64,000 nucleotides of DNA from Clostridiaceae bacterium BRH_c20a. GTDB lineage: Bacteria; Bacillota; Peptococcia; Peptococcales; BICA1-8. The notes below the pieces were generated by a model, which did not search any database, was not told the origin of the DNA, and was given only the letters and a program-made list of their open reading frames with translations. A program made the position numbers and the translations under genes. The stretch lies in NCBI GenBank assembly GCA_000961765.1, contig LADT01000053.1, forward strand, positions 1-64,000, given 5' to 3'. Position 1 is the stretch's first letter, and every line of letters starts with the position of its first letter. Below, one piece after another: positions 5,695 through 29,469 of this stretch.

Positions 5695-5881
5695 CTATTA
5701 TCCTCATCCTCTAATATGAGTTTTTGTCTGTAACTACAATACCTATAACAAATATAGCTCATCTAATTCTAATTCTAATTCTACGTTTACGCATTATAAG
5801 TATATCACAATACCACCCAGTGCATTGCGTTTTTGGGATTTCATCTTCACGAATATCCGATGTCATCTATAAAAAGCCCTT

Positions 5882-5922
5882 AAAAAACGGGCCAAAAAAT
5901 GCACTTTTTTAGCCCGTTTTTT
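5882..5922. terminator. Bidirectional terminator
   Basis: AAAAAACGGGC and GCCCGTTTTTT flank a loop that itself contains AAAAAATGCACTTTTTT, giving A/T tails on both strands. It lies between the phosphatase start and the left end of the cassette array. Confidence 0.7.
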
Positions 5923-5968: not shown

Positions 5969-6068
5969 TTATTTGCCCTTCTGACCACTATTTGTCATCA
6001 GAATTATACTCTCAACATGCCTTGAGGATACAAAAAAGATGTCGTACCCCTCTGGTATCCCCTTGGCG
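5969..6068 (-). repeat. att-like repeat, copy B
   Basis: The minus-strand reading is AAKGIPEGYD followed by IFFVSSRHVE and the tail SIILMTNSGQKGK with a stop. The first half matches the other copies almost base for base; the tail is of its own type. It marks the 3' end of the cassette that holds the intact recombinase, the TOTE-type protein and RhuM. Confidence 0.75.
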
Positions 6069-6114
6069 GCGGTTATATTTCATAAATAGTCGATTTTATA
6101 GGCCAGTTTTTTCA

Positions 6115-7173: not shown

Positions 7174-10077
7174 TCATAACATATCTTCAACGGTTCCTAT
7201 CAGTTCATTCGCAATATTGATACTGTCCAACCTCATTATGCTTTCCTCAGAGCTGCCAAAGCTTAAAAGATTAATACTTCCATACCATATAATTCTCTGA
7301 TCAATAATCGCAAACTTCTGATGTATATTTGGTTTGAAAATAAGATTTGCACCTGATAATCGTATGGAATTAAGCATATCTAAAAAAGCAGACTTATCCT
7401 TTTCCTTATAATCCGTTTCTGGCCTTGTGACTATTGTGATCTTAGCCCCATTATTAATGCCGGAAGACAGGATATTGAGCATTTGATTTAGCCGCTTTTT
7501 TGTCATATATGGGCTTACTATAACAATATCTGATTTTGAGGATGAAATATCATTGCTGAATACAGTCATAAAATTATGGTTATCAAAAATAGCATTTGTA
7601 GATTCAAACGGCTTTCTGTCGCTTTTGGCTGAATACCCTATGGCCGCATATCCATTAAGCCTCTTATGATACATCCGCTCAAGTACCCCAACATGGACAT
7701 CCACATAATCATAAATCTGAACCTCATTCTTACTTTGATACAACCTGTGCAATCGTCCGGCATATTGCTGTACTGTTCCTTTCCACGCAATGGGCATTGC
7801 CAGAAACAATGTATCAAGTCTCGGTTCATCAAAACCTTCGCCTACAAATCTGCCTGTAGCAACGATAACAATATTCTCATTTGCCGGAATGTTTGATAGT
7901 TTTTCAAGCGCTGATCTTCTCTCATTCGCTGACATTCCGCCGATTAACTTAACAACATTCGGAAGCACCTCCGATAACTGATTTACGATTAATTCGACAT
8001 GGGCCGTCCTCTCAGTCAGAATAATAGGGTTGCGGCCTTCTTTTGCGCAGCTGATTACATCTTCTATGATTAACTGATTTCGGATTTGACTGGTGCTGAT
8101 TTCAGAATATATTTCACCTATGGACCATTCTTTTTCATCCTGACTGACAGGCTTTCTGAAAGGAGTGAAGCGAGGGATAATGTAGTGCTCAAAAGGTCTT
8201 TTTTCAGCTTGCTCTTTCGCGTCAACTTTGTATCGCACAGGCCCGCAATGCATAAATATAATGGGATGATGTCCATCCTGCCTCGCAGGAGTGGCCGTGA
8301 GACCGTAAACATATTTGGCTGAAACATTTTTTAGAATTTGTTCAAAGCTGAACGCAGGTACATGATGGCATTCGTCAACAATAACCATTCCATACTCCCT
8401 AACAACCCCGTTTACCTCGTCACCTTTTACCAATGACTGCATAACAGCAATATCAATAATGCCGCTTAGGTTTTTCTTACCACCGCCAAGCTGTCCAATA
8501 ATACTCCGAATCTTTTTCCAGCCCCGTTTTTTCACGGGTTCGTCAGGCAATACTTCATTTATCGTCAGGAATTGGTTCAGCCGTTCCTTCCACTGTTCTA
8601 ATAATTGTTGGGTGTGAACAAGCACAAGAGTGTTCATTTTTCTTTCGGATATAAGTTTCGCTCCTATAACTGTTTTCCCAAAAGCAGTAGTGGCCGATAA
8701 AACTCCATTATCGTGCCGAAGCATTGAATCTACCGCATCTATCTGTTCATCACGAAGTTCCCCGTTAAATTCAACCCTAACGGTTCTGCCTAAAGAGGTT
8801 TCATCCGCCCATTTTATATAGACTCTCGAAGTGCCGAACAAATTTACCAAATCAGGCTCGCATCCTCTTGGAAGGCACAAATAATCCGGTGTTTCATCTG
8901 ATAAAGAGATAATTCTTGGCTTATCATAAGTTGGCAATCTCATCGCCTGGGCCTTATAAAAATCAGGGTTTCTGAAAGTGGCCATACGCTTTAAGCTATT
9001 CAACGCTTTATTGGAAAAGCCATTTTTGTTAATGTACAGCATATTTGCTCTTGTAATATGAACTGTTTCCGGAATATCCGCCTTGAGTAGTTTACCATCC
9101 GGCCTTTCCCTCTCCCATGGTTTTATACCTTCATCTTCGCTTTGTCTTAAATCTCCCAGCTCGTTACCGCCGCCAAGCTGTGAGATATAAGCATCGATAT
9201 CTTCATCGCTCAGCATTCTCATATTGCTTAAAAAACTCCACTGGTCATCATATGGCTGAAAATCCTCGTCTATAAACACGCTGTTATTATTTTTTCGTGC
9301 ATTCGCTTGTAATGGCAATGCGATAAGATTTCCGAATCCCCCTTTGGGAAGCGTGTCCTGATTGGGAAACAGGCGATCATATGAGTTGAATTTAATCTCA
9401 TGTCTCTCGGACATTGCATTAGTCAAAAGCAATGTGCCGAATTTTCTTGCGTCAACAGCACTGATTCTGTCTTTAAAAAAGAACCATGCATGAGCGCCGT
9501 TCCCTGATTGAGATCGTTCGACTGCAATCGGTATATTCTTATTGATGCATATGTCTCTTAGTGTTTTAATATCCTTTTGCCAGCCCTCGCCATCAAAGTC
9601 CATAGCAAGAAAATAACAGGTTTCATCCGGCAGCATAGGATAGATGCCAAATATCGCCTTCCCCCTTAAATGAGCGTCAACTGCAAAAAAATCAACAATC
9701 GCATAATATTTTTTGTCACAGTCGGAACATTTAATTTTAGGCTTGCTGCAGATCCCCTTAACCCACTCATTCAGACAAACAGGGGAATATCCTGACTTAC
9801 CTGTCTTGTTCTGCCATCTTTTTGCATATACATCATTCCTACCTCTGAACAACGACATGAATTGGTTGATTTTTTCCTGAGGAGAACTGTTATTCGTTAC
9901 TTGCTTTGGTTCATTAAGCCGGTCAGATAGGTCTATTCCTTCTTGTAAATGAATTTCACTTTCGAATAATGGCAATGGTAATCCAAGCTGAATTCTGAAA
10001 TCTTCATTTTCAATCTTCAGCTTCTTATTTTCTTCTAATAATTTTTGGTATTTTCTATGAAGTTCTTCATATTCCAT
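7174..10077 (-). CDS. TOTE-type conflict protein: AEP primase, SF2 helicase and PLD nuclease
   Basis: 967 residues in four parts. Residues 1-30 are a coiled coil. Residues about 70-290 are an archaeo-eukaryotic primase-like domain with FLAMDFDGEG (metal-binding motif I, 156-165) and SGNGAHAWFF (motif II, 191-200), plus a possible zinc ligand set CSKPKIKCSDC. Residues about 430-800 are a superfamily 2 helicase with Walker A TTAFGKTVIG (463-472), DECH (568-571), TATPAR (594-599) and QQYAGRLHR (769-777). Residues about 845-967 are a PLD-type domain with IHQKFAIID (918-926) followed by the GSIN loop. This architecture is that of TOTE-type conflict systems, presumed to act against invading nucleic acids. 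All active-site motifs are present and the frame is unbroken. Confidence 0.85.
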   Translation of the reverse strand: MEYEELHRKYQKLLEENKKLKIENEDFRIQLGLPLPLFESEIHLQEGIDLSDRLNEPKQVTNNSSPQEKINQFMSLFRGRNDVYAKRWQNKTGKSGYSPVCLNEWVKGICSKPKIKCSDCDKKYYAIVDFFAVDAHLRGKAIFGIYPMLPDETCYFLAMDFDGEGWQKDIKTLRDICINKNIPIAVERSQSGNGAHAWFFFKDRISAVDARKFGTLLLTNAMSERHEIKFNSYDRLFPNQDTLPKGGFGNLIALPLQANARKNNNSVFIDEDFQPYDDQWSFLSNMRMLSDEDIDAYISQLGGGNELGDLRQSEDEGIKPWERERPDGKLLKADIPETVHITRANMLYINKNGFSNKALNSLKRMATFRNPDFYKAQAMRLPTYDKPRIISLSDETPDYLCLPRGCEPDLVNLFGTSRVYIKWADETSLGRTVRVEFNGELRDEQIDAVDSMLRHDNGVLSATTAFGKTVIGAKLISERKMNTLVLVHTQQLLEQWKERLNQFLTINEVLPDEPVKKRGWKKIRSIIGQLGGGKKNLSGIIDIAVMQSLVKGDEVNGVVREYGMVIVDECHHVPAFSFEQILKNVSAKYVYGLTATPARQDGHHPIIFMHCGPVRYKVDAKEQAEKRPFEHYIIPRFTPFRKPVSQDEKEWSIGEIYSEISTSQIRNQLIIEDVISCAKEGRNPIILTERTAHVELIVNQLSEVLPNVVKLIGGMSANERRSALEKLSNIPANENIVIVATGRFVGEGFDEPRLDTLFLAMPIAWKGTVQQYAGRLHRLYQSKNEVQIYDYVDVHVGVLERMYHKRLNGYAAIGYSAKSDRKPFESTNAIFDNHNFMTVFSNDISSSKSDIVIVSPYMTKKRLNQMLNILSSGINNGAKITIVTRPETDYKEKDKSAFLDMLNSIRLSGANLIFKPNIHQKFAIIDQRIIWYGSINLLSFGSSEESIMRLDSINIANELIGTVEDML

Positions 10078-10307: not shown

Positions 10308-11561
10308 TCATTCCTTCTGGAATGACCTTTTCTCCTGAAACCCATTCGTGCGGAAAATCAGAATAAAAGTATCAAAAATCCGGATTCTATCAACTTCATT
10401 TCTGACTATAACTTCATTATAAGCTCCGTGGCAAATAGCCGCGCCCAGAGTATCCCGTACCCAACCTTCATCTAATGTTGGGGAATGGGGGCATGCCTCT
10501 TTTCCTCTCTCAATCCGGGTCGCACAACGCCAGACAACCTTGCCCCGTTCAGTCCTTCTACGATAAGACGCTCCGCAATCTCCGCACACAAGCAAATTCC
10601 CCAGAAGATATTTACCGCTATATTTGCTTCCGCTGATTTCTGCTGTGCCATCCTCGTTACTGACAAGCCTTGAACGCTTGGCCATTTCCTCTTGTACCTT
10701 ATCAAATAATTCAGCAGAGACAATAGCTGGATGGCTGTCTTTCACATAATACTGATTTCGCTGTCCGATATTTTTGCTTTTCTTTCCGGTCATAAAATCC
10801 TCAGTAAAGGTCTTTTGAAGCATTGTATCGACCTTGTATTTTTCGTTGGTCAACATCCTCTGGATCGTTTTTGTATCCCAAATCTCCTTGCCCGTTACAG
10901 TCCTAATTCCTTGGGCTCCCAGATAATCCTTAATTTGTCCCAACGTCAGGCCTTGTAAATATAAGTCAAATATCTTTCTTACCACCTCTGCTTGTTCCGG
11001 CACAATGACAATATCACCGTCGACGCAAGTGTATCCCATGAAATTCTTATTCTTCGCAAAGATATCGCCCTTTTCAAACTTGCGCTCAATTCCCCATTTA
11101 ATGTTCTCACTGATATTACGACTCTCGTCCTGCGCTAGCATACCCCTCAGCGTAATCTCAAATTCTTTATCAGCTTCGATTGAATCCAGCTTCTCATTTT
11201 CAAAATGCATATTGATTCCTCGCTCTCTTAAAAATCTACTCATTTTTAAAACCTCCAGAGTATCCCTTGATACTCTGCTGATTGACTTGGTGATGATGTA
11301 ATCAATTTTGCCTTTCGCCGCTTTTTTGAGCAGCTTGTCCAAACTTTTTCTACCGCTTCGGCGAAGCCCGCTTTCAATATCATAATAAACACCGGCAAAA
11401 ATCCAGTTGGGATGGCTTTTTATCATCTTCGTGTATGCACTTATCTGAATCTCAAGGCTGCGTAGTTGTTCCGGACCAGAGGTGCTGACCCGGCAGTAAG
11501 CGGCAACCCTAAGCTTTTTATTCTCTTTCAGTTTAGCAGGTATAATCCTTACATTTTTCAT
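10308..11561 (-). CDS. Serine recombinase 1 (intact, large-serine-recombinase type)
   Basis: 417 residues. The resolvase-type catalytic domain spans about 17-150, with AAYCRVSTSG (nucleophile Ser26), DIESG and SRVSRD (95-100). The recombinase domain spans about 165-290 (KNFMGYTC, then VVRKIFDLYLQGLT and TIQRMLTNEKYK). A zinc ribbon spans about 318-360 (Cys 326, 329, 346 and 357). The protein is short for the large serine class, with little coiled coil after the ribbon. Such enzymes integrate and excise DNA at short attP/attB sites. It is the only one of three paralogs here without a frameshift. It sits just downstream of repeat C and its terminator, the position expected for an integrase next to its attachment site. 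Confidence 0.9.
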   Translation of the reverse strand: MKNVRIIPAKLKENKKLRVAAYCRVSTSGPEQLRSLEIQISAYTKMIKSHPNWIFAGVYYDIESGLRRSGRKSLDKLLKKAAKGKIDYIITKSISRVSRDTLEVLKMSRFLRERGINMHFENEKLDSIEADKEFEITLRGMLAQDESRNISENIKWGIERKFEKGDIFAKNKNFMGYTCVDGDIVIVPEQAEVVRKIFDLYLQGLTLGQIKDYLGAQGIRTVTGKEIWDTKTIQRMLTNEKYKVDTMLQKTFTEDFMTGKKSKNIGQRNQYYVKDSHPAIVSAELFDKVQEEMAKRSRLVSNEDGTAEISGSKYSGKYLLGNLLVCGDCGASYRRRTERGKVVWRCATRIERGKEACPHSPTLDEGWVRDTLGAAICHGAYNEVIVRNEVDRIRIFDTFILIFRTNGFQEKRSFQKE

Positions 11562-11688: not shown

Positions 11689-11775
11689 TTACAGCCGTTG
11701 CAACAGGATTACGGCTTCCACATGCCTTGAGGAGATAATAAGTATGTCGTAACACTCTGGTATCCCCTTGGCGGA
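11689..11775 (-). repeat. att-like repeat, copy C
   Basis: Minus-strand reading is SAKGIPECYD, then ISSRHVEA and the tail VILLQRL with a stop, the same tail type as the real rlmD end. It is followed leftward by a terminator and recombinase 1, so it would be the recombinase-proximal junction of that element. The first half carries a few substitutions relative to copies A, B and E. Confidence 0.75.
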
Positions 11776-11891: not shown

Positions 11892-13160
11892 TTATAAGGT
11901 TAGTGAATCAATAGCGTTTATTATCCCGGAGATAATCTCATGCTGTCGCTTGTCTTCAAGATAAATATGAAAACGAATCATCTCATCCAGTTTATTAGAC
12001 ATCAAGCTCCTGTCCTTATCAGTTAGGTGGACTCTCAATATTCTGATACATCTTGCCGGGAGACGTTGGCATATAAACTCTATGTATTTGCTCTGTTGCT
12101 CATCCCATCCATATATACCTTTCTTATCGTCGATGAAACTTTTTATTTTATTAACGATAGCCATATATAACATGCGTTTTGAAATACGCTTTTTGTCTTC
12201 ACCTATAGCCGATGTATTTGAAATCAGACCAATGAGAAATGCAACGTCTTTTAACGTTTTAACCTTACCAGTATTACTAATTTGATAAATAAACTCATCC
12301 TGAAACTCGCTGCTTACAAGATTACGTGCAAAAGTAATGGGATAAATAGTTTGGTGTACTAACAAGAAATTGGTAAGTAAGGCTACCTGCGTCCGCTTAT
12401 CGCAGTTCTCCAGAAATGTATAGCACTCGTTAATCGATATTTTCAATGTTCTATTAACGCTTCTAATATTCTTACCGTGATAGCCTCCGAGCGTTTCAGA
12501 CCTCTTAATATAATCAATGTCGTTAATGCATCTTGATATTGAGCGGGTTATAAAGAGTAAACCTATATTTTGCTTTAGTTCATCTTCATCCAGAAGTAGT
12601 TTGTCGATTAATTCCTTAGACGGCTCGATACTAAGGTGATAACTCGTTATATTCAATAGTATAAGCTTTGTTTTATCCATTAAAGCCAACTTTTCGAATT
12701 TCTGCGAATCAGCCAGGCTAAGAACTTTGGCCGCTTGGAAGAGTTCGATGTAGTCCCAATAATTAAAATCAACAAAGCGTAATATATAATCGTATTTATT
12801 TTCGAATAGAGAATCAGTTAGGTTTACTTTTATAGACAGGAGCTCAGAATCACTGGCTAAAAGAGTATATAAACCTCCATACAAGTGACCAACAAGCCCG
12901 TGTAGCACAACAGCTTCTTTCACTTCCGAAACGCTGTCAAGATTACGTCTCAATACGGCCATAATAACGATTACTGTGGCAATATTCTTGTCCTTGCCAG
13001 GAAGAGGAGATATATAATTGCGCAGTTCACGGATTACCGTAGCAGAACTCTTATTATGTAAAATACTATTGATTTTCTGTTTGGCATCCAGCCGCTTCAA
13101 CCGTTCATTTAAGTGATCGTCAAGAACCTGACTCAAGGCTCTGACAGTATTTTTATCCAA
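11892..13160 (-). CDS. Unknown all-helical protein, partner of the PLD-like gene
   Basis: 422 residues that I do not recognise. It is predicted almost entirely helical, with no transmembrane segment, signal peptide, or nucleotide-binding or nuclease motif. It begins three bases after the stop of the upstream PLD-like gene, so the two are very likely translated together and act as a pair. There is no other gene in this cassette, which is bounded by repeats C and D. A role as regulatory or sensor subunit of a two-gene conflict system is an inference from context only. Confidence 0.75.
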   Translation of the reverse strand: MDKNTVRALSQVLDDHLNERLKRLDAKQKINSILHNKSSATVIRELRNYISPLPGKDKNIATVIVIMAVLRRNLDSVSEVKEAVVLHGLVGHLYGGLYTLLASDSELLSIKVNLTDSLFENKYDYILRFVDFNYWDYIELFQAAKVLSLADSQKFEKLALMDKTKLILLNITSYHLSIEPSKELIDKLLLDEDELKQNIGLLFITRSISRCINDIDYIKRSETLGGYHGKNIRSVNRTLKISINECYTFLENCDKRTQVALLTNFLLVHQTIYPITFARNLVSSEFQDEFIYQISNTGKVKTLKDVAFLIGLISNTSAIGEDKKRISKRMLYMAIVNKIKSFIDDKKGIYGWDEQQSKYIEFICQRLPARCIRILRVHLTDKDRSLMSNKLDEMIRFHIYLEDKRQHEIISGIINAIDSLTL

Positions 13161-13163
13161 CAG

Positions 13164-14558
13164 CTATACCTCCACATCCTTTAGCAGATTGTTACTATCA
13201 AGCGTCCATGATTCAAGCTCGCCGCATATTGTCTGCGAAGCATTATGGCTGAGCTTAAAAATGCAATAATAATGATCTCCGAGGGAGTTAAATGACGTCC
13301 CTATGGCCAGTCCAGAATGGATTTTGCCTGTTTCCGTCAGTACGAACCTGTCATGTATTGGAGACTTCGTTTGATAAAAATGTATTCCAAGCGCTTTGCG
13401 CGTTCTCAATATCATACTTAGTTCGGCATCTCTCTCAATTTCTTTTTTCAATGCCTCTAAATCAAGTGCGTTATTTGGGCCTTTGCTATAAAAGATGACA
13501 TTTTTCGATTGCGCCCGACAATTCGCGAGAATACGAATCCAGTCTAACATTCCTTTAATGCCATTGACATCGGTAAAATACGAATCGAAAATCCATATTG
13601 TGTCGGAAGCGGTCTGCATTACACTTCCTATCAAATCTATAGCCTTTTGAAGCTCGCCAGGCTTCATAAATGTTACCTGATCATCTGGTTTTTCGGCATT
13701 CAACCGCTTCTTTATTTCGGAGGCGGAGGCATTCATCATCTCTTCATATTCGTCTGGGGGATCGCCGATAGTTGATACATGACCGCTACCATTGTGTTCA
13801 AATGCATAACTATCAGCTATTTTGCTAAGTCTAATTCTTTTTTTCGGATTTTTAAGCTGCATATTGATTTGCATTCGCCTTATATATGAAAGATCCTTTC
13901 TATAATAGACCAACTCATCATCAAAAAAGATTTCTATATCATGATAAGTCCATGGCTTGTCGGACTTGATTTCCGTTTCCTCGGTTTCATGATCAATCCG
14001 AACAATTTTCGTCGATACTATGACGTCATTTTTCTTAAACCGAACGATAACAGTTGATCCAACTGGAAGACTTTCAACAATAATACCTTCTGCTTTATTC
14101 GCACGGTAATTGCGAGCGTAACTCCTATAAATAAGAACATCACCGTAAAGCATTGGGTTCTTTTCAATGTCAAGACCTGTGTATTTTTTTATAAACTCGT
14201 TAATATAAATCAGCTTATCAACAGGAATGCCGAGAAAATATCTGTCTCCTGAAAACCTGAAAAGCCTCGATGGTTTATTAGAGTACTCGTAATGAACCAT
14301 ATATGCGCAAGCGTCATCACTATATGGGTTTTTCGTTGAGTCAGGAGTTAATAATCCCTCTTCCTTTATCGACCAATCGGCGATATTGTCTATCTCATCG
14401 TCTGAAACCAGTGTTTCGGTAAAAACCAGATTATATGACCCGACCTTTTCAACTATTTTCAAGCGCCGTTCTTTGATTTCGTCGTCAAAACCCAGGTGAT
14501 AAACTGTCAATAATGCCTGTCCACCATATATAATTCTATCGCAGATCATATAATACAC
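13164..14558 (-). CDS. Unknown protein with C-terminal PLD-like domain
   Basis: 464 residues. The start may be the GTG at 14558 or, three codons in, the ATG at 14549, which is better spaced from GGGAG. The N-terminal 270 residues are an unrecognised mixed alpha/beta region. From about 315 the layout is PLD-like: TIWIFDSYF (hydrophobic strand with Asp), a helix, VIFYSKG, then SPIHDRFVLTETG (His402) and GTSFNSLG (420-427). The usual HxK is HDR here, so the lysine is absent. A nuclease or NTP-sensing role is possible. I considered the VPA1262-type paired families but cannot confirm them. It forms an operon with the helical partner downstream. Confidence 0.75.
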   Translation of the reverse strand: MYYMICDRIIYGGQALLTVYHLGFDDEIKERRLKIVEKVGSYNLVFTETLVSDDEIDNIADWSIKEEGLLTPDSTKNPYSDDACAYMVHYEYSNKPSRLFRFSGDRYFLGIPVDKLIYINEFIKKYTGLDIEKNPMLYGDVLIYRSYARNYRANKAEGIIVESLPVGSTVIVRFKKNDVIVSTKIVRIDHETEETEIKSDKPWTYHDIEIFFDDELVYYRKDLSYIRRMQINMQLKNPKKRIRLSKIADSYAFEHNGSGHVSTIGDPPDEYEEMMNASASEIKKRLNAEKPDDQVTFMKPGELQKAIDLIGSVMQTASDTIWIFDSYFTDVNGIKGMLDWIRILANCRAQSKNVIFYSKGPNNALDLEALKKEIERDAELSMILRTRKALGIHFYQTKSPIHDRFVLTETGKIHSGLAIGTSFNSLGDHYYCIFKLSHNASQTICGELESWTLDSNNLLKDVEV

Positions 14559-14654: not shown

Positions 14655-14735
14655 TCTGCAACAGGATTATGGATTTCACATGGCCTTCAGGATAACAAAA
14701 AGGTGTCATGCCAATCTGGTATCCCCTTAATGACA
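14655..14735 (-). repeat. att-like repeat, copy D (degenerate)
   Basis: Minus-strand bases give VIKGIPDW and, after one indel, the remains of the SSRHVE segment, then a well preserved ATAATCCTGTTGCAG tail start. It lies between the PLD-like two-gene cassette and the DUF4238/OLD-like cassette. Substitutions and an indel mark it as old. Confidence 0.65.
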
Positions 14736-18695: not shown

Positions 18696-19950
18696 TTAGT
18701 CATCCTGGAATAGCACTTTCTTCTGTGACCCATTATTGCGGAAAATCAGGATAATCGTATCAAAAATCTGGACTTTATCAACCTCATTCCTAATTATGCC
18801 TTCATCATAAATTCCTTTATGGCAAATAGCTTCACTCAGAACACCTTGTACCCATCCTTCATCCACAGTAGGGGAGTGAGGACATGTCTCTTTGCCCTTT
18901 TCAATCCGAGTCGCACATCTCCAAACCACCTTGCCTCTTTCCGTTCTTCGCCGATACGATGCTCCACAATCGCCACACACGAGTAAATTCCCCAAAAGGT
19001 ATTTTCCGTTATATTTTATTCCGCTGGTTTCTACCGTGCCATACTCTTTACTGACAAACCTTGCACGCTTGTCCATTTCCTCCTGTACCTTGTCGAATAT
19101 TTCGGCAGAAACGATGGCCGGATGGCTGTCCTTCACATAGTATTGGTTGCGTTGCCCGATATTCTTACTTTTCTTACCGATCATGAAATCCTCCGTGAAG
19201 GTCTTTTGCAGTATTGTATCACCTTTGTATTTCTCGTTCGTCAACATTCTCTGAATCGTTTTCGCATCCCAAAGCTCCTTACCAGTTACTGTTCTAATTC
19301 CCTGAGATTCCAAATACGCCTTGATTTGTCCCAAGACAGGCCTTGCAAATATAAATCAAATATTTTTCTGACTATTTCTGCCTGCTCTGGTATAACAACA
19401 ATCTCACCGTCAACGCAGTCATATCCCATGAAATTCTTATACTTAGTGAAGATATCGCCTTTCTCGAATTTACGTTGAAATCCCCTCTGAATATTTTCGC
19501 TGATATTCTGGCTTTCGCCCTGTGCCAGCATGCCCCTGAGCGTAATTTCGAATTCTTTATCCGCTTCGATTGAATCCAGCTTCTCATTTTCAAAATGCAT
19601 ATTAATACCTCGCTCTCTTAAAAATCTTACTATTTTCAAAACCTCAGAGTATCCCTTGAGACCCTGCTGATTGACTTGGTTAAGATGTAATCGATTTTCC
19701 CTTTCGCCGCTTTCTTGAGCATTTTATCCAGCCCAGTTCTGCCGCTTCGGCGCAACCCGCTTTCAATATCATAGAAAACACCGGCAAAAATCCAGTAAGG
19801 ATGGTTTTTTATCATCTTAGTATAAGTTTTTATCTGAATCTCAAGGCTGCGCAGTTGTTCCGGTCCGGATGTACTGACCCGGCAATAGGCAGCAACCTTG
19901 AGCTTTTTATTCTTTTTGGGTAAAGCAGGAATAATCCTGACATTTTTCAT
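18696..19950 (-). pseudogene. Serine recombinase 2, two frameshifts
   Basis: A close paralog of recombinase 1 over its whole length, but split in three frames. The N-terminal part (19636-19950) keeps AAYCRVSTSG and SRVSRD. The middle part (19286-19639) runs to LYLQGLSWDK. The last part (18696-19334) carries the recombinase domain end and the zinc ribbon CGDCGASY. Single-base losses are inferred near 19645 (before VLKIVRFL) and near 19330 (in LQGLxLGQIK). Unless both are sequencing errors, the element that carried the OLD-like pair can no longer move by itself. Confidence 0.85.
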
Positions 19951-20076: not shown

Positions 20077-20172
20077 TCAGCCTTTCAACCGTTGCAACAG
20101 GATTATGGCTTCCACATGCCTTGAGGATACAAAAAAGATGCCGATTGAAGCTGGTAGCCCCTTGGCGGCAGG
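20077..20172 (-). repeat. att-like repeat, copy E (best preserved)
   Basis: Minus-strand reading is AAKGLPASIG, IFFVSSRHVEA and the tail IILLQRLKG with a TGA stop. It aligns to the real rlmD 3' end (TEAVVLLQRLKT, stop) through the tail, stop codon and downstream bases up to a terminator. It separates the recombinase-2 cassette from the toxin-antitoxin cassette. Confidence 0.8.
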
Positions 20173-20889: not shown

Positions 20890-20977
20890 CTAGCGTGTCC
20901 GTACCAACAGGCAAGCCGTCTCCACATGCCTGAGGAGACAAAAAAAATGCCGTTTGGAGCTGGTAGACCCTTGGCGA
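20890..20977 (-). repeat. att-like repeat, copy F
   Basis: Minus-strand reading is VAKGLPAPNG and IFFVSS; a one-base loss follows, and restoring it gives RHVE and the tail TACLLVRTR with a stop. The tail type differs from copies C, D and E. It separates the toxin-antitoxin cassette from the SEC-C cassette. Confidence 0.75.
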
Positions 20978-22643: not shown

Positions 22644-22742
22644 TTATTTGCAAGGCTTTATGTACGCTCTAGCAAGCAAACCGATTCTGTATGCCTTGAG
22701 GATACAAAAAAGATGCCGCCGGGAGCTGGTGGGGCCTTGGCG
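22644..22742 (-). repeat. att-like repeat, copy G
   Basis: Minus-strand reading is PAKAPPAPGG, IFFVSSRHTE and the tail SVCLLARAYIKPCK with a stop. The HTE matches the HTE of the real rlmD end better than the HVE of the other copies, but the tail differs. It lies between the TIR cassette and the SEC-C cassette. Confidence 0.75.
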
Positions 22743-22751
22743 GGAAATTAA

Positions 22752-23563
22752 CTAAAAAGTTATCTTAAAATCTTTTAAAGACTTCAGTCTACGCATCACC
22801 GCTTCAACTAATATTGCAAGTTCATCTGTCTGATTGTTTAATTGACACCACATAGCTATTTGATGAGGACCACCTTTGATTGCTTCTTTTCTTAAACCAT
22901 GTAATACATATCCTGCTGTAACATTCATTCCAGAGCAAATAAATGCATAATACTTATTAATATCTTCAAAATCTGGCAGAAAAGATTTTTCATGATCAAT
23001 AGCCTCTTTCAATGCTTCCGGAATATCACGACGTTCTTTTTCTAACCTTTCAAGCAATAATCTTTTTTCTCCCCGACTTACGTTAATCTCTTCTTTAAGT
23101 TTTTCTATTGTCATAAGATAAAAGTCTATTTCCTCTTTGGAAATTTTGCTGTCTTCAGTTTTATACGGACTTTCACTAAGCTTTTCAATTATTAAATTCA
23201 ACGCATTGGAATAATTTTCCTCAGTAGTAAAATCGGCATACAATTTGCCTTTTAAAAAAGATGGCGGGTCGACTTTCTCAAGCATAATAGGCAGACCTTA
23301 ATTTTCTTGCCCTCAATTTCTTGATTCATCGCGATATCTATTTCACGCCTTACCCATTCAGATTCAATCGAACTTTTTGAAAGTACCACGCCTACATATT
23401 CAACCTTATCAATACCTTCTCTGATTTTTTGAGTAAGGGAATCACCTAATTTAATTTCTGCCTCGTCTATCCAAACATAAAAGCCATTTCGTCTCAAATC
23501 ATTGGCTAATTTTCTCGCGAAAGGTTTGTCACTTGAATTATGACTTAAAAAGATACTGCTCAT
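22752..23563 (-). pseudogene. TIR-domain protein, frameshifted
   Basis: The first frame gives a near-complete TIR domain: SSIFLSHNSSDKPFARKLA, GFYVWIDEAEIKLGDSL, VVLSKSSIESEWVRREIDIA (with the Glu expected of NAD-cleaving TIRs) and KKIKV. After a one-base loss near 23290 the second frame continues PIMLEKVDPPSFLKGKLYAD, the natural next TIR segment. A coiled-coil stretch and a helical C-terminal domain of about 80 residues follow. TIR defence proteins usually degrade NAD+ on infection. As written the gene would not give a full product. Confidence 0.75.
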
Positions 23564-23647: not shown

Positions 23648-23728
23648 AGGTCTGCAACATGATTATGACTTTTCATGTCTTAAGTTTACATAAAGATGTC
23701 GCTTGGACCTGGTGGGGTCTTAGCGAGA
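23648..23728 (-). repeat. att-like repeat, copy H (most degenerate)
   Basis: Minus-strand reading is LAKTPPGPSD and IFM, then stops and small indels, and a tail resembling IIMLQT. The order of bases still follows the other copies. It lies between the ABC-3C cassette and the TIR gene. Confidence 0.6.
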
Positions 23729-26730: not shown

Positions 26731-27980
26731 TCATTTTGGAAGAATTTTCTCCTGCGACCCATCCTTACGAAAAATCAGAATATAAGCGTCAAGAACCTGA
26801 ATTTTATCAACTTCATTCCTGATTATGCCTTCATTATAAGCTTCGTTCTGGCAAACAACTGCACCCAGGGTATCATGCACCCATCCTTCAACCAGAGTAG
26901 GGGAATGAGGGCAAGCATCTTTGCCCTTTTCAATCCTTGTCGCACAGCGCCAGACTACCTTACCCCGCTCAGTTCTCCTCCGATAAGATGCTCCGCAATC
27001 TCCGCACACGAGCAAATTTCCCAGAAGGTATTTGCCATTATATTTACTTCCGCTGATTTCTACTGTGCCATCCTCGCTAGTAACAAGCCGCGCACGTTTC
27101 GCCATCTCTTCCTGCACCTTATCAAATACTTCAGCAGAGACAATAGCTGGATGGCTATCTTTCACATAATACTTGTTTCGCTGCCCTTCATTTCTTCTTT
27201 TCTTACCGGTCATAAAATTCTCGGTAAAGGTTTTTTGAAGCATTGTATCGCCTTTGTATTTCTCATTGGCCAACATCCTATGGATCGTTTTTGTATCCCA
27301 AATCTCCTTACCCGTTACAGTCTTAATTCCCTGGGCTTCTAGATATGCCTTTATGTGTTGCAACGTCTGGCCTTGTAAATATAAATCAAATATTTTGCTG
27401 ACTGCCTCTGCCTGTTCCTGCACAATGACAATCTCGCCGCCTATGCAGGTATAGCCCATGAAATTCTTGTACTTAGTGTAGATTCACCTTTTTCAAACTT
27501 GCGTTGAATTCCCCATTGAATATTCTCGCTGATATTCCGGCTTTCATCCTGTGCCAGCATACCCCTCAGCGTAATCTCAAACTCTTTATCTATTTCGATT
27601 GAATCCAGCTTTTCATTTTCAAAATGCATATTGATCCCTCGCTCTCTTAAAAATCTTATTATTTTCAAAACTTCCACTGTATCCCTTGACACCCTGCTGA
27701 TTGACTTGGTGATGATATAGTCTATTTTCCCTTTCGCCGCTTTTTTGAGTAGCTTATCCAAACTTTTTCTGCCGCTTCGTCGAAGCCCACTTTCGATATC
27801 ATAGAAAACACCGGCAAAAAGCCAGTTAGGATGGCTTTTTATCATCTTCGTATAAGTCTTTATCTGAATCTCAAGACTGCGCATCTGCTCCGGTCCTGAT
27901 GTGCTGACTCGGCAATAGGCGGCGACCCTGAGCTTTTTATGCTCTTTGGGTTTAGCGGGTATAATCCTTACATTTTTCAT
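26731..27980 (-). pseudogene. Serine recombinase 3, one frameshift
   Basis: A third paralog, as long as recombinase 1. The catalytic domain and the following linker are in 27441-27980 (AAYCRVSTSG, SRVSRDTVEVLK) and break at KFEKGES, where paralogs have KFEKGDIF. The rest (MGYTC, recombinase domain, zinc ribbon) is in 26731-27459. One indel near 27485 separates them. It is the recombinase nearest rlmD, hence presumably the last element to enter, yet it is broken. The shared downstream hairpin of the other two copies is missing here. Confidence 0.85.
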
Positions 27981-28101: not shown

Positions 28102-29469
28102 TCAGGTTTTCAGCCTTTGCAACAGGACTACGGCTTCCGTATGGCTGGTCTGAGGAAAAAGATCTACAGGCTGGACATTCCCTACCTCATATCCGTTTGT
28201 CACCAAGTATTTTAAATCTCTAGCCAAAGTAGCGGGGTTACAGGATACATAGACAACCCTCTTTGGACTAACCCCCACAATAGCCTCCAATGTCTCCGGA
28301 GCACAGCCTTTACGAGGGGGATCAACTATAATTACGTCAGCCCTTCCCCCTCCTTTGACCCATTGGGGCAGCCATTCTTCTGCTTTGCCAACAATAAATT
28401 CTGTGTTAAAAATATTATTTAGCTTAGTATTTTCCCGGGCATCTTTAATAGCCTCTTCAACTACTTCTATCCCAATTACCTCTTTAGCCTTTTTTGCTGC
28501 ATAAATTGCAATACTTCCAATACCGCAGTAAGCATCAACTACTGTCTCTTCTCCAGAAAGATCTGCATATTCTAAGGCTTTTTCATACAGAACTTGAGCC
28601 TGTTCATTGTTAACCTGAAAAAAAGATTGGGGAGAAATCTTAAAAATGAAAGGGCCAATAGTATCCTGTATAAAGGCTTTTCCCCAAATAGGTTTAAATT
28701 TATTTCCTAAAATGACCGGCTTATTACCTTTATTAATATTTTGATAAACCGATTGAACCTGAGGAAAAACTGCTAGTAAGCTATGTAATACTGCATCTAC
28801 CAACCACGCATCATCATTAGTAACAAAAATAACCATTATTTCACCGGTAGCCCTACTTTCCCTAATCATAATATTACGTAGATATCCCTGACCCTTATTA
28901 CGTTTATATACTGATACTCCTGCGAGGGTAAGCTGTTCTTCCAGGTAGCTTAGAAGCCGATTTACCACTGAGCTAAAAAGGAGACTTGCTTTGGCGGGAA
29001 TAAAATCATGGGAACCAGGTTCATAAAAGCCCAGCATAATCTCTCCGTCTACCTTTTCTAGATGGAAATGCCCCTTATTCCTGTAGCGCCAAGGATATCC
29101 CATTCCTAATGTAGGCTCTACAGCTACATCAATACCTCCTAATTTAAACAAGGCGTCTTTTACCTGCTGTGCCTTTAATTCAAGCTGTTTTTCATAGCTG
29201 ATATGCTGAAGCTGGCACCCACCGCACTTTTCGGCATAAAGACAGGGGGCATCAACTCTACACGGGGCTGCCTCTAGTATGTTTTTTAGCCTTCCTTGAG
29301 CAAAGTTTTTTCTAATCCCACAAATCTTCACACTGACTTTTTCTCCCGGTATTGCTCCCGGCACAAATACAGCAAAATTATTGACTCGGCCGATACCCTC
29401 ACCTTGATGAGATAATCCCGTTATATTTAAATCATAATTTTCACCTAGGATTACAGGTTTTTCTTGCAC
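28102..29469 (-). CDS. rlmD: 23S rRNA (uracil-C5)-methyltransferase, RlmD/RumA family
   Basis: 455 residues from a GTG start with GGGGTG upstream. It has a TRAM domain at the N-terminus (YDLNITGLSHQGEGIGRVNN), the iron-sulfur cysteines of PCLYAEKCGGCQLQHI, SAM motif VDAYCGIGSIAIYAA, VDPPRKGC, and the catalytic Cys in YVSCNPATLARDL. It methylates a specific uridine in 23S rRNA (U1939 in E. coli, or the RlmCD pair in Gram-positives; the site here is not certain). The C-terminus FPQTSHTEAVVLLQRLKT is the segment echoed by the repeats, and a broken recombinase starts 120 bases downstream. This end is the presumed integration target. Confidence 0.85.
   Translation of the reverse strand: MQEKPVILGENYDLNITGLSHQGEGIGRVNNFAVFVPGAIPGEKVSVKICGIRKNFAQGRLKNILEAAPCRVDAPCLYAEKCGGCQLQHISYEKQLELKAQQVKDALFKLGGIDVAVEPTLGMGYPWRYRNKGHFHLEKVDGEIMLGFYEPGSHDFIPAKASLLFSSVVNRLLSYLEEQLTLAGVSVYKRNKGQGYLRNIMIRESRATGEIMVIFVTNDDAWLVDAVLHSLLAVFPQVQSVYQNINKGNKPVILGNKFKPIWGKAFIQDTIGPFIFKISPQSFFQVNNEQAQVLYEKALEYADLSGEETVVDAYCGIGSIAIYAAKKAKEVIGIEVVEEAIKDARENTKLNNIFNTEFIVGKAEEWLPQWVKGGGRADVIIVDPPRKGCAPETLEAIVGVSPKRVVYVSCNPATLARDLKYLVTNGYEVGNVQPVDLFPQTSHTEAVVLLQRLKT

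Follow-up and report, generated by a model that had tools for sequence, protein, structure and literature searches.

In known PLD nucleases the Lys of the HxK motif binds phosphate, and the site used by SCC elements lies at the 3' end of rlmH, an RNA methyltransferase gene. VPA1262, the family closest to the locus described here, takes its name from a Vibrio parahaemolyticus gene on island VPaI-6 (PMC1464126) and is mentioned in the open literature as an island ORF. It is represented in NCBIfam by a domain model (NF040700, VPA1262_N_dom) and by a full-length model (NF040699, VPA1262_fam) that describes a fused protein roughly 1,000 aa long; a Vibrio copy has no DNA-level relative in E. coli genomes, and no PADLOC-DB model convincingly recognises the ten VPA1262 relatives that were scanned. 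A second point of comparison is the MIT_C domain, whose bearer MITD1 has been reported to bind membranes via a PLD-like fold (PMC6015221); MIT_C goes unmentioned in the passages found in a 2026 BREX survey (PMC12839542).

Here we describe a pair of adjacent genes in a window of 64,000 nucleotides, the whole stretch of DNA analysed, from Clostridiaceae bacterium BRH_c20a (contig LADT01000053.1). We regard the pair as a good candidate, as yet unproven, for a new bacterial immune system with two parts.

The gene pair and its distribution

Both genes lie on the minus strand. Gene 1 (13164..14558) has 464 codons and a GTG start, and encodes a divergent VPA1262_N-type protein with a C-terminal PLD-like region, while gene 2 (11892..13160), its partner, has 422 codons and a TTG start, and its product is predicted to be all-helical and solenoid-like. 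An ATG three codons into gene 1, to which the homologues align, could be the true start. The ORF calls place the two genes three bases apart, as the initial annotation of this DNA had stated. A scan of 84,980 species genomes found relatives of gene 1 on four contigs. One belongs to a Desulfosporosinus MAG and shows 86% identity, the other three come from gut or rumen MAGs of Clostridia and show 48%, and in all four a gene 2 follows after exactly three bases, with 82% identity in Desulfosporosinus and 46-47% in the gut and rumen copies. Relative to the Desulfosporosinus copy the dN/dS ratio is 0.18 for gene 1 and 0.30 for gene 2, indicative of purifying selection, and since the pair and its three-base gap are also kept in four other contigs, both genes must be real. 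No other carrier of either gene was seen in a 398-genome sample of the phylum, bar one distant match to the PLD region, and no close relatives of the pair turned up in viral contigs, plasmids or phages. It is thus a real, rare unit that is kept together. In two of the MAGs the gene immediately ahead of the pair encodes the same S-layer-homology-like surface protein (L003, 1-663; L005, 265-4101, upstream of gene 1), an insertion context different from the recombinase array of the window.

The recombination cassette

The pair is bounded on both sides by recombination-site-like repeats on the minus strand, one upstream at 14660..14732 (nhmmer E 1.9e-17) and one downstream at 11702..11774 (E 4.4e-21). 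From 14660 to 11774 the two sites enclose the pair and nothing more, so that its description as alone in its cassette was correct. The repeat is about 74 nt long and has seven clear copies (2-49, 5997-6069, 11702-11774, 14660-14732, 20096-20168, 20906-20976 and 22671-22743), a weaker copy at 23656-23725, and a remnant (28117-28161) that lies inside a TRAM/uracil-5-methyltransferase gene (28102-29469), at its 3' end. Elsewhere in the 4.5 Mb genome none was detected at a meaningful E-value; all copies lie in this island.

Positions 1-28161 of the window form an array of about eight cassettes bounded by seven to nine such sites, several with a serine recombinase of their own and most holding a single unit, probably of defence or toxin type. 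Three related serine recombinases are present, and the one at 10308-11561 is the only copy that looks intact, the other two (18696-19950 and 26731-27980) being broken into two or three frames.

On the Desulfosporosinus contig (L002) the same repeat flanks the pair on both sides, at 5834-5899 and 8699-8755. DNA identity between the two loci is 88%, beginning inside the upstream site and ending at the end of gene 2. The neighbours differ, with a NACHT protein and HEC-02A/B in Desulfosporosinus and TOTE/RhuM and an OLD-like unit in the window. The same bounding repeat with different neighbours indicates that the mobile unit consists of these two genes and no others.

Gene 1 and its PLD-like centre

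It had been thought that the first 270 residues of gene 1 were unrecognised. This holds for residues 1-88, which match nothing in PADLOC or PHROGs and nothing in Pfam or NCBIfam above weak sub-cut-off matches, but not for residues 89 onward: NF040700 matches residues 89-451 (13206..14294, minus strand) with an E-value of 8e-19 and 67.7 bits, short of the curated cut-off of 80 bits. The profile comparison with hhalign bears out the earlier hint of a VPA1262-type relationship, aligning residues of about 95-450 with the profile of separate-gene VPA1262 proteins over 337 columns at a probability of 98.1 and an E-value of 1.4e-13. The pairing sets IFDSYF of gene 1 on LWDPY, IHDRF on FHDRF, and GTSFNSLG on GTSINSLG, and the FHDRF-type motif, [WF]D[PS][YF] and GxSxN are all present in gene 1 and its homologues. 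In the tree the four-member clade of the window has full support (100/100) and sits on a long branch within the group of separate-gene VPA1262 proteins, apart from the fused ones; its placement within VPA1262 is not firm (93/89). Gene 1 is a clear homologue of VPA1262_N and a new clade of it. The full-length model NF040699 matches neither gene of the pair, which here are two separate genes.

The PLD-like region spans about residues 303-451 (13206..13652, minus strand), with an FDSYF strand, IHDRF at residues 401-405 and GTSFN, resembling the GSxN of PLD proteins, at residues 420-424; the conserved form of this PLD-type centre is FD[SP]YF, HDRF and GxSxN. The layout is as first annotated, the Lys being absent and Arg following IHD: at the HxK position (HDR, residues 402-404; 13347..13355, minus strand) the His is kept and Lys is replaced by Arg, and Glu stands for Asp, so that the HxK(x)4D motif is missing. 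What does not stand is the reading of HDR as a peculiarity of this protein. HxR occurs in all 24 aligned relatives, as HDR in 23 and HGR in one, and the His, Arg and GxSxN positions are kept from Firmicutes to Alphaproteobacteria and Cyanobacteria. As judged from these alignments HDR is a signature of the whole VPA1262 family, seen in a BREX BrxL too, in its MIT_C domain, so that it cannot be taken as a sign that the enzyme of gene 1 is newly broken.

The link to MIT_C is a faint one. Pfam MIT_C (PF16565) matches residues 309-412 of gene 1 at E 0.003 and 17.9 bits, below the gathering cut-off of 25 bits, and being below the cut-offs of both models gene 1 is filed as a formal member of neither VPA1262_N nor MIT_C. 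A BrxL from the same phylum (L067, 6780-8906) ends in an MIT_C PLD-like domain (E 4e-53) that carries HDREIRLD, an HxR(x)4D motif, and a DPY strand motif; HDR falls at about position 92 of the MIT_C profile in this copy and about 93 in gene 1. Compared directly by profile, gene 1 and the MIT_C domain of BrxL gave no significant match, and the motifs and one weak HMM match hint at a weak kinship. Most other MIT_C matches had an LH[NH]RL pattern in proteins of ~370 aa that resemble ABC-transporter ATPases, and were discarded as chance.

Pfam gave no classical PLDc match in gene 1, and sequence searches against solved structures returned matches at chance level. A PtuB match recurred, covering 39 residues of gene 1 at E 0.02-0.2. 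Fold prediction of both proteins had been proposed as a check, and its outcome was mixed, with an all-helical model of gene 2 (pLDDT 68) and an unusable one of gene 1 (pLDDT 43), for which Foldseek found no meaningful match in the PDB; the strand-helix order of the PLD-like region is visible in this low-confidence model.

Gene 2 and the second parts of VPA1262 systems

The AlphaFold2 model of gene 2 (pTM 0.52) contains 21 helices and no strand, in keeping with its initial description as a helical partner. The nearest PDB folds are solenoids of ARM/HEAT/Pumilio types (importin-alpha, beta-catenin, ALPK1 and Pumilio-like), none of them significant and none with an E-value below 0.03, and at moderate model confidence this suggests an all-helical, solenoid-like protein. 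The partner was also said to be unrecognised, and PADLOC and PHROGs indeed hold nothing like it, with Pfam and NCBIfam giving nothing above weak sub-cut-off matches.

Wherever the contig permits checking, VPA1262_N has a large second part, fused to it at eight of the loci compared, in a single chain of about 1,000-1,130 aa, and encoded by the next gene at ten; gene 1 and gene 2 fit this plan. On a Bradyrhizobium plasmid the VPA1262_N gene is separated from its partner by an IS630-type transposase gene (L041, 9660-10724). Nine of the ten separate partners form a loose family by BLAST. Profile comparison of gene 2 with the separate VPA1262 partners and the fused C-terminal parts gave no significant match, and the second parts of different VPA1262 clades are likewise unmatched to one another, whereas the N-domains clearly match; the negative result for gene 2 therefore weighs little against a relationship. 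At the level of sequence comparison, what stays constant in the system is the PLD-type protein and what varies is the partner, helical in the model of gene 2.

Defence neighbourhood

The cassettes near the pair carry TOTE, RhuM, OLD-like, ABC-3C and TIR genes, and a ParE-type toxin is among the next cassettes. The TOTE protein, two genes from the pair, ends in a PLDc_2 domain. The TIR domain gene (23252-23563; Pfam TIR_2, E 2e-24) has a frame apparently broken from the following 177-aa ORF (22752-23285), and the two are possibly a frameshifted TIR effector. HEC-02A/B lie beside the Desulfosporosinus pair, as noted above; PDC-M30/M41, AbiH and SIR2-like genes lie beside VPA1262 pairs, and plasmid-borne VPA1262 loci keep company with CBASS, restriction enzymes and reverse transcriptases. 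Defence genes are nearby at many, not all, of the loci, namely the window, the Desulfosporosinus contig and six VPA1262 loci; at four other VPA1262 loci there is none. The defence company of the pair is guilt by association. No housekeeping context was seen at the loci of the pair and its VPA1262 relatives.

Proposed function and alternatives

The suggestion in the initial annotation that the pair is a candidate conflict system gains from its defence neighbours and its mobile cassette, and its basis is still genomic company. On that basis we propose, with a probability of roughly 0.55, that the pair is a self-contained two-component defence module, anti-phage or anti-plasmid. It would be the minimal cargo that a serine-recombinase cassette can carry. 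The alpha-solenoid of gene 2 would recognise an invader component and, upon recognition, would release or position gene 1, whose PLD-type centre, having an Arg instead of the Lys in its phosphate pocket, may bind a phosphate-bearing ligand, either nucleic acid or a membrane phospholipid. Gene 1, in an effector or adaptor role, would as an effector halt the infected cell or the invader. Recognition is assigned to the partner because the second parts are the faster-evolving, variable ones and the N-domain is constant, an assignment that we infer from rates and fold class. Gene 1 might cleave its ligand, with Arg standing in for Lys in a dimer, or might solely bind it, as the PLD fold of MITD1 binds membranes; binding with impaired or altered catalysis appears slightly more likely than cleavage.

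The main rival to this proposal, though an unlikely one, is a restriction-like system: the PLD-type domain would be catalytically active as a nuclease or phosphodiesterase, working as a homodimer with Arg replacing Lys, and would break down DNA or RNA of the invader, and the helical protein would be its specificity factor. PLD domains in other defence proteins are nucleases, the TOTE protein two genes away ends in a PLDc_2 domain, and the conservation of His, Arg and GxSxN across distant phyla is what would be expected of an active site. The phosphate-binding Lys of HxK is, however, never present in the relatives, the Asp expected seven residues beyond the His, one off the canonical spacing, is Glu in gene 1 and is not conserved among them, and gene 1 lacks a classical PLDc match.

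Two tightly spaced genes alone between recombination sites, with a ParE-type toxin in the next cassettes, might also be read as a toxin-antitoxin-like pair, made up of a poison and its neutraliser, that keeps the cassette stable. That is improbable, as both proteins are large for such a pair and match no toxin-antitoxin family, and the VPA1262 relatives are often one fused chain. Still less probable is an accessory of cassette movement, an aid to excision or integration rather than defence: the pair does lie between recombination-site-like repeats in a serine-recombinase array, but it is present in one of the eight cassettes, several others have neither a recombinase nor such a gene, and there are VPA1262 relatives outside any such array. 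That the pair is an ordinary metabolic or structural unit is very improbable given the sporadic distribution, the mobile-cassette location and the defence neighbours, and no point in favour of it was found.

A wider form of the defence proposal is more tentative than the proposal itself, namely that these systems might constitute an undescribed two-component immune class, in which an HxR PLD-type phosphate-binding centre is joined to a fast-diverging alpha-solenoid recogniser, separate or fused, in several phyla and also as a bare two-gene cassette. VPA1262 has been merely a name in NCBIfam, and it is the two-part plan, the HxR PLD-type centre and island residence that together make it a testable immune system. 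The bounds of the cassette define the exact DNA to assay: two genes and nothing more.

Comparison with known systems

As an element, the array resembles SCC and the Enterococcus cassette chromosome (PMC6222049) in its serine recombinases and repeated sites. The gene that holds its last site also encodes an RNA methyltransferase, with the site again at the 3' end; the layout is SCC-like, the target gene another one. It differs from these elements in its recombinase branch, its TRAM/uracil-5-methyltransferase target, its seven to nine tandem sites and its one-system cassettes.

With the classical HKD PLD proteins and nucleases (PF13091, PF00614; TOTE, DISARM DrmC, Nuc) gene 1 probably shares its fold order, and it keeps the His and GxSxN, but it has HxR instead of HxK, the following Asp is not conserved, and there is no Pfam PLDc match. 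MIT_C proteins (PF16565; eukaryotic MITD1 and the BrxL of L067) are alike in having a PLD-like domain without HxK, HDR at the matching profile position and, in the BrxL copy, a DPY motif similar to the strand motif of gene 1; gene 1 in turn has no MIT, BrxL or ATPase domain, and its MIT_C match is sub-cut-off. The VPA1262 family (NF040700, NF040699) differs from the pair in the first ~90 residues of gene 1, in a partner not detectably related and in the pair's own long-branch clade, yet has in common with it about 340 homologous columns, the order of W/F-D-P/S-Y/F strand, HDRF and GxSxN, an N-part plus a large second part, and location on an island or plasmid. The system is a variant of the uncharacterised VPA1262 kind.
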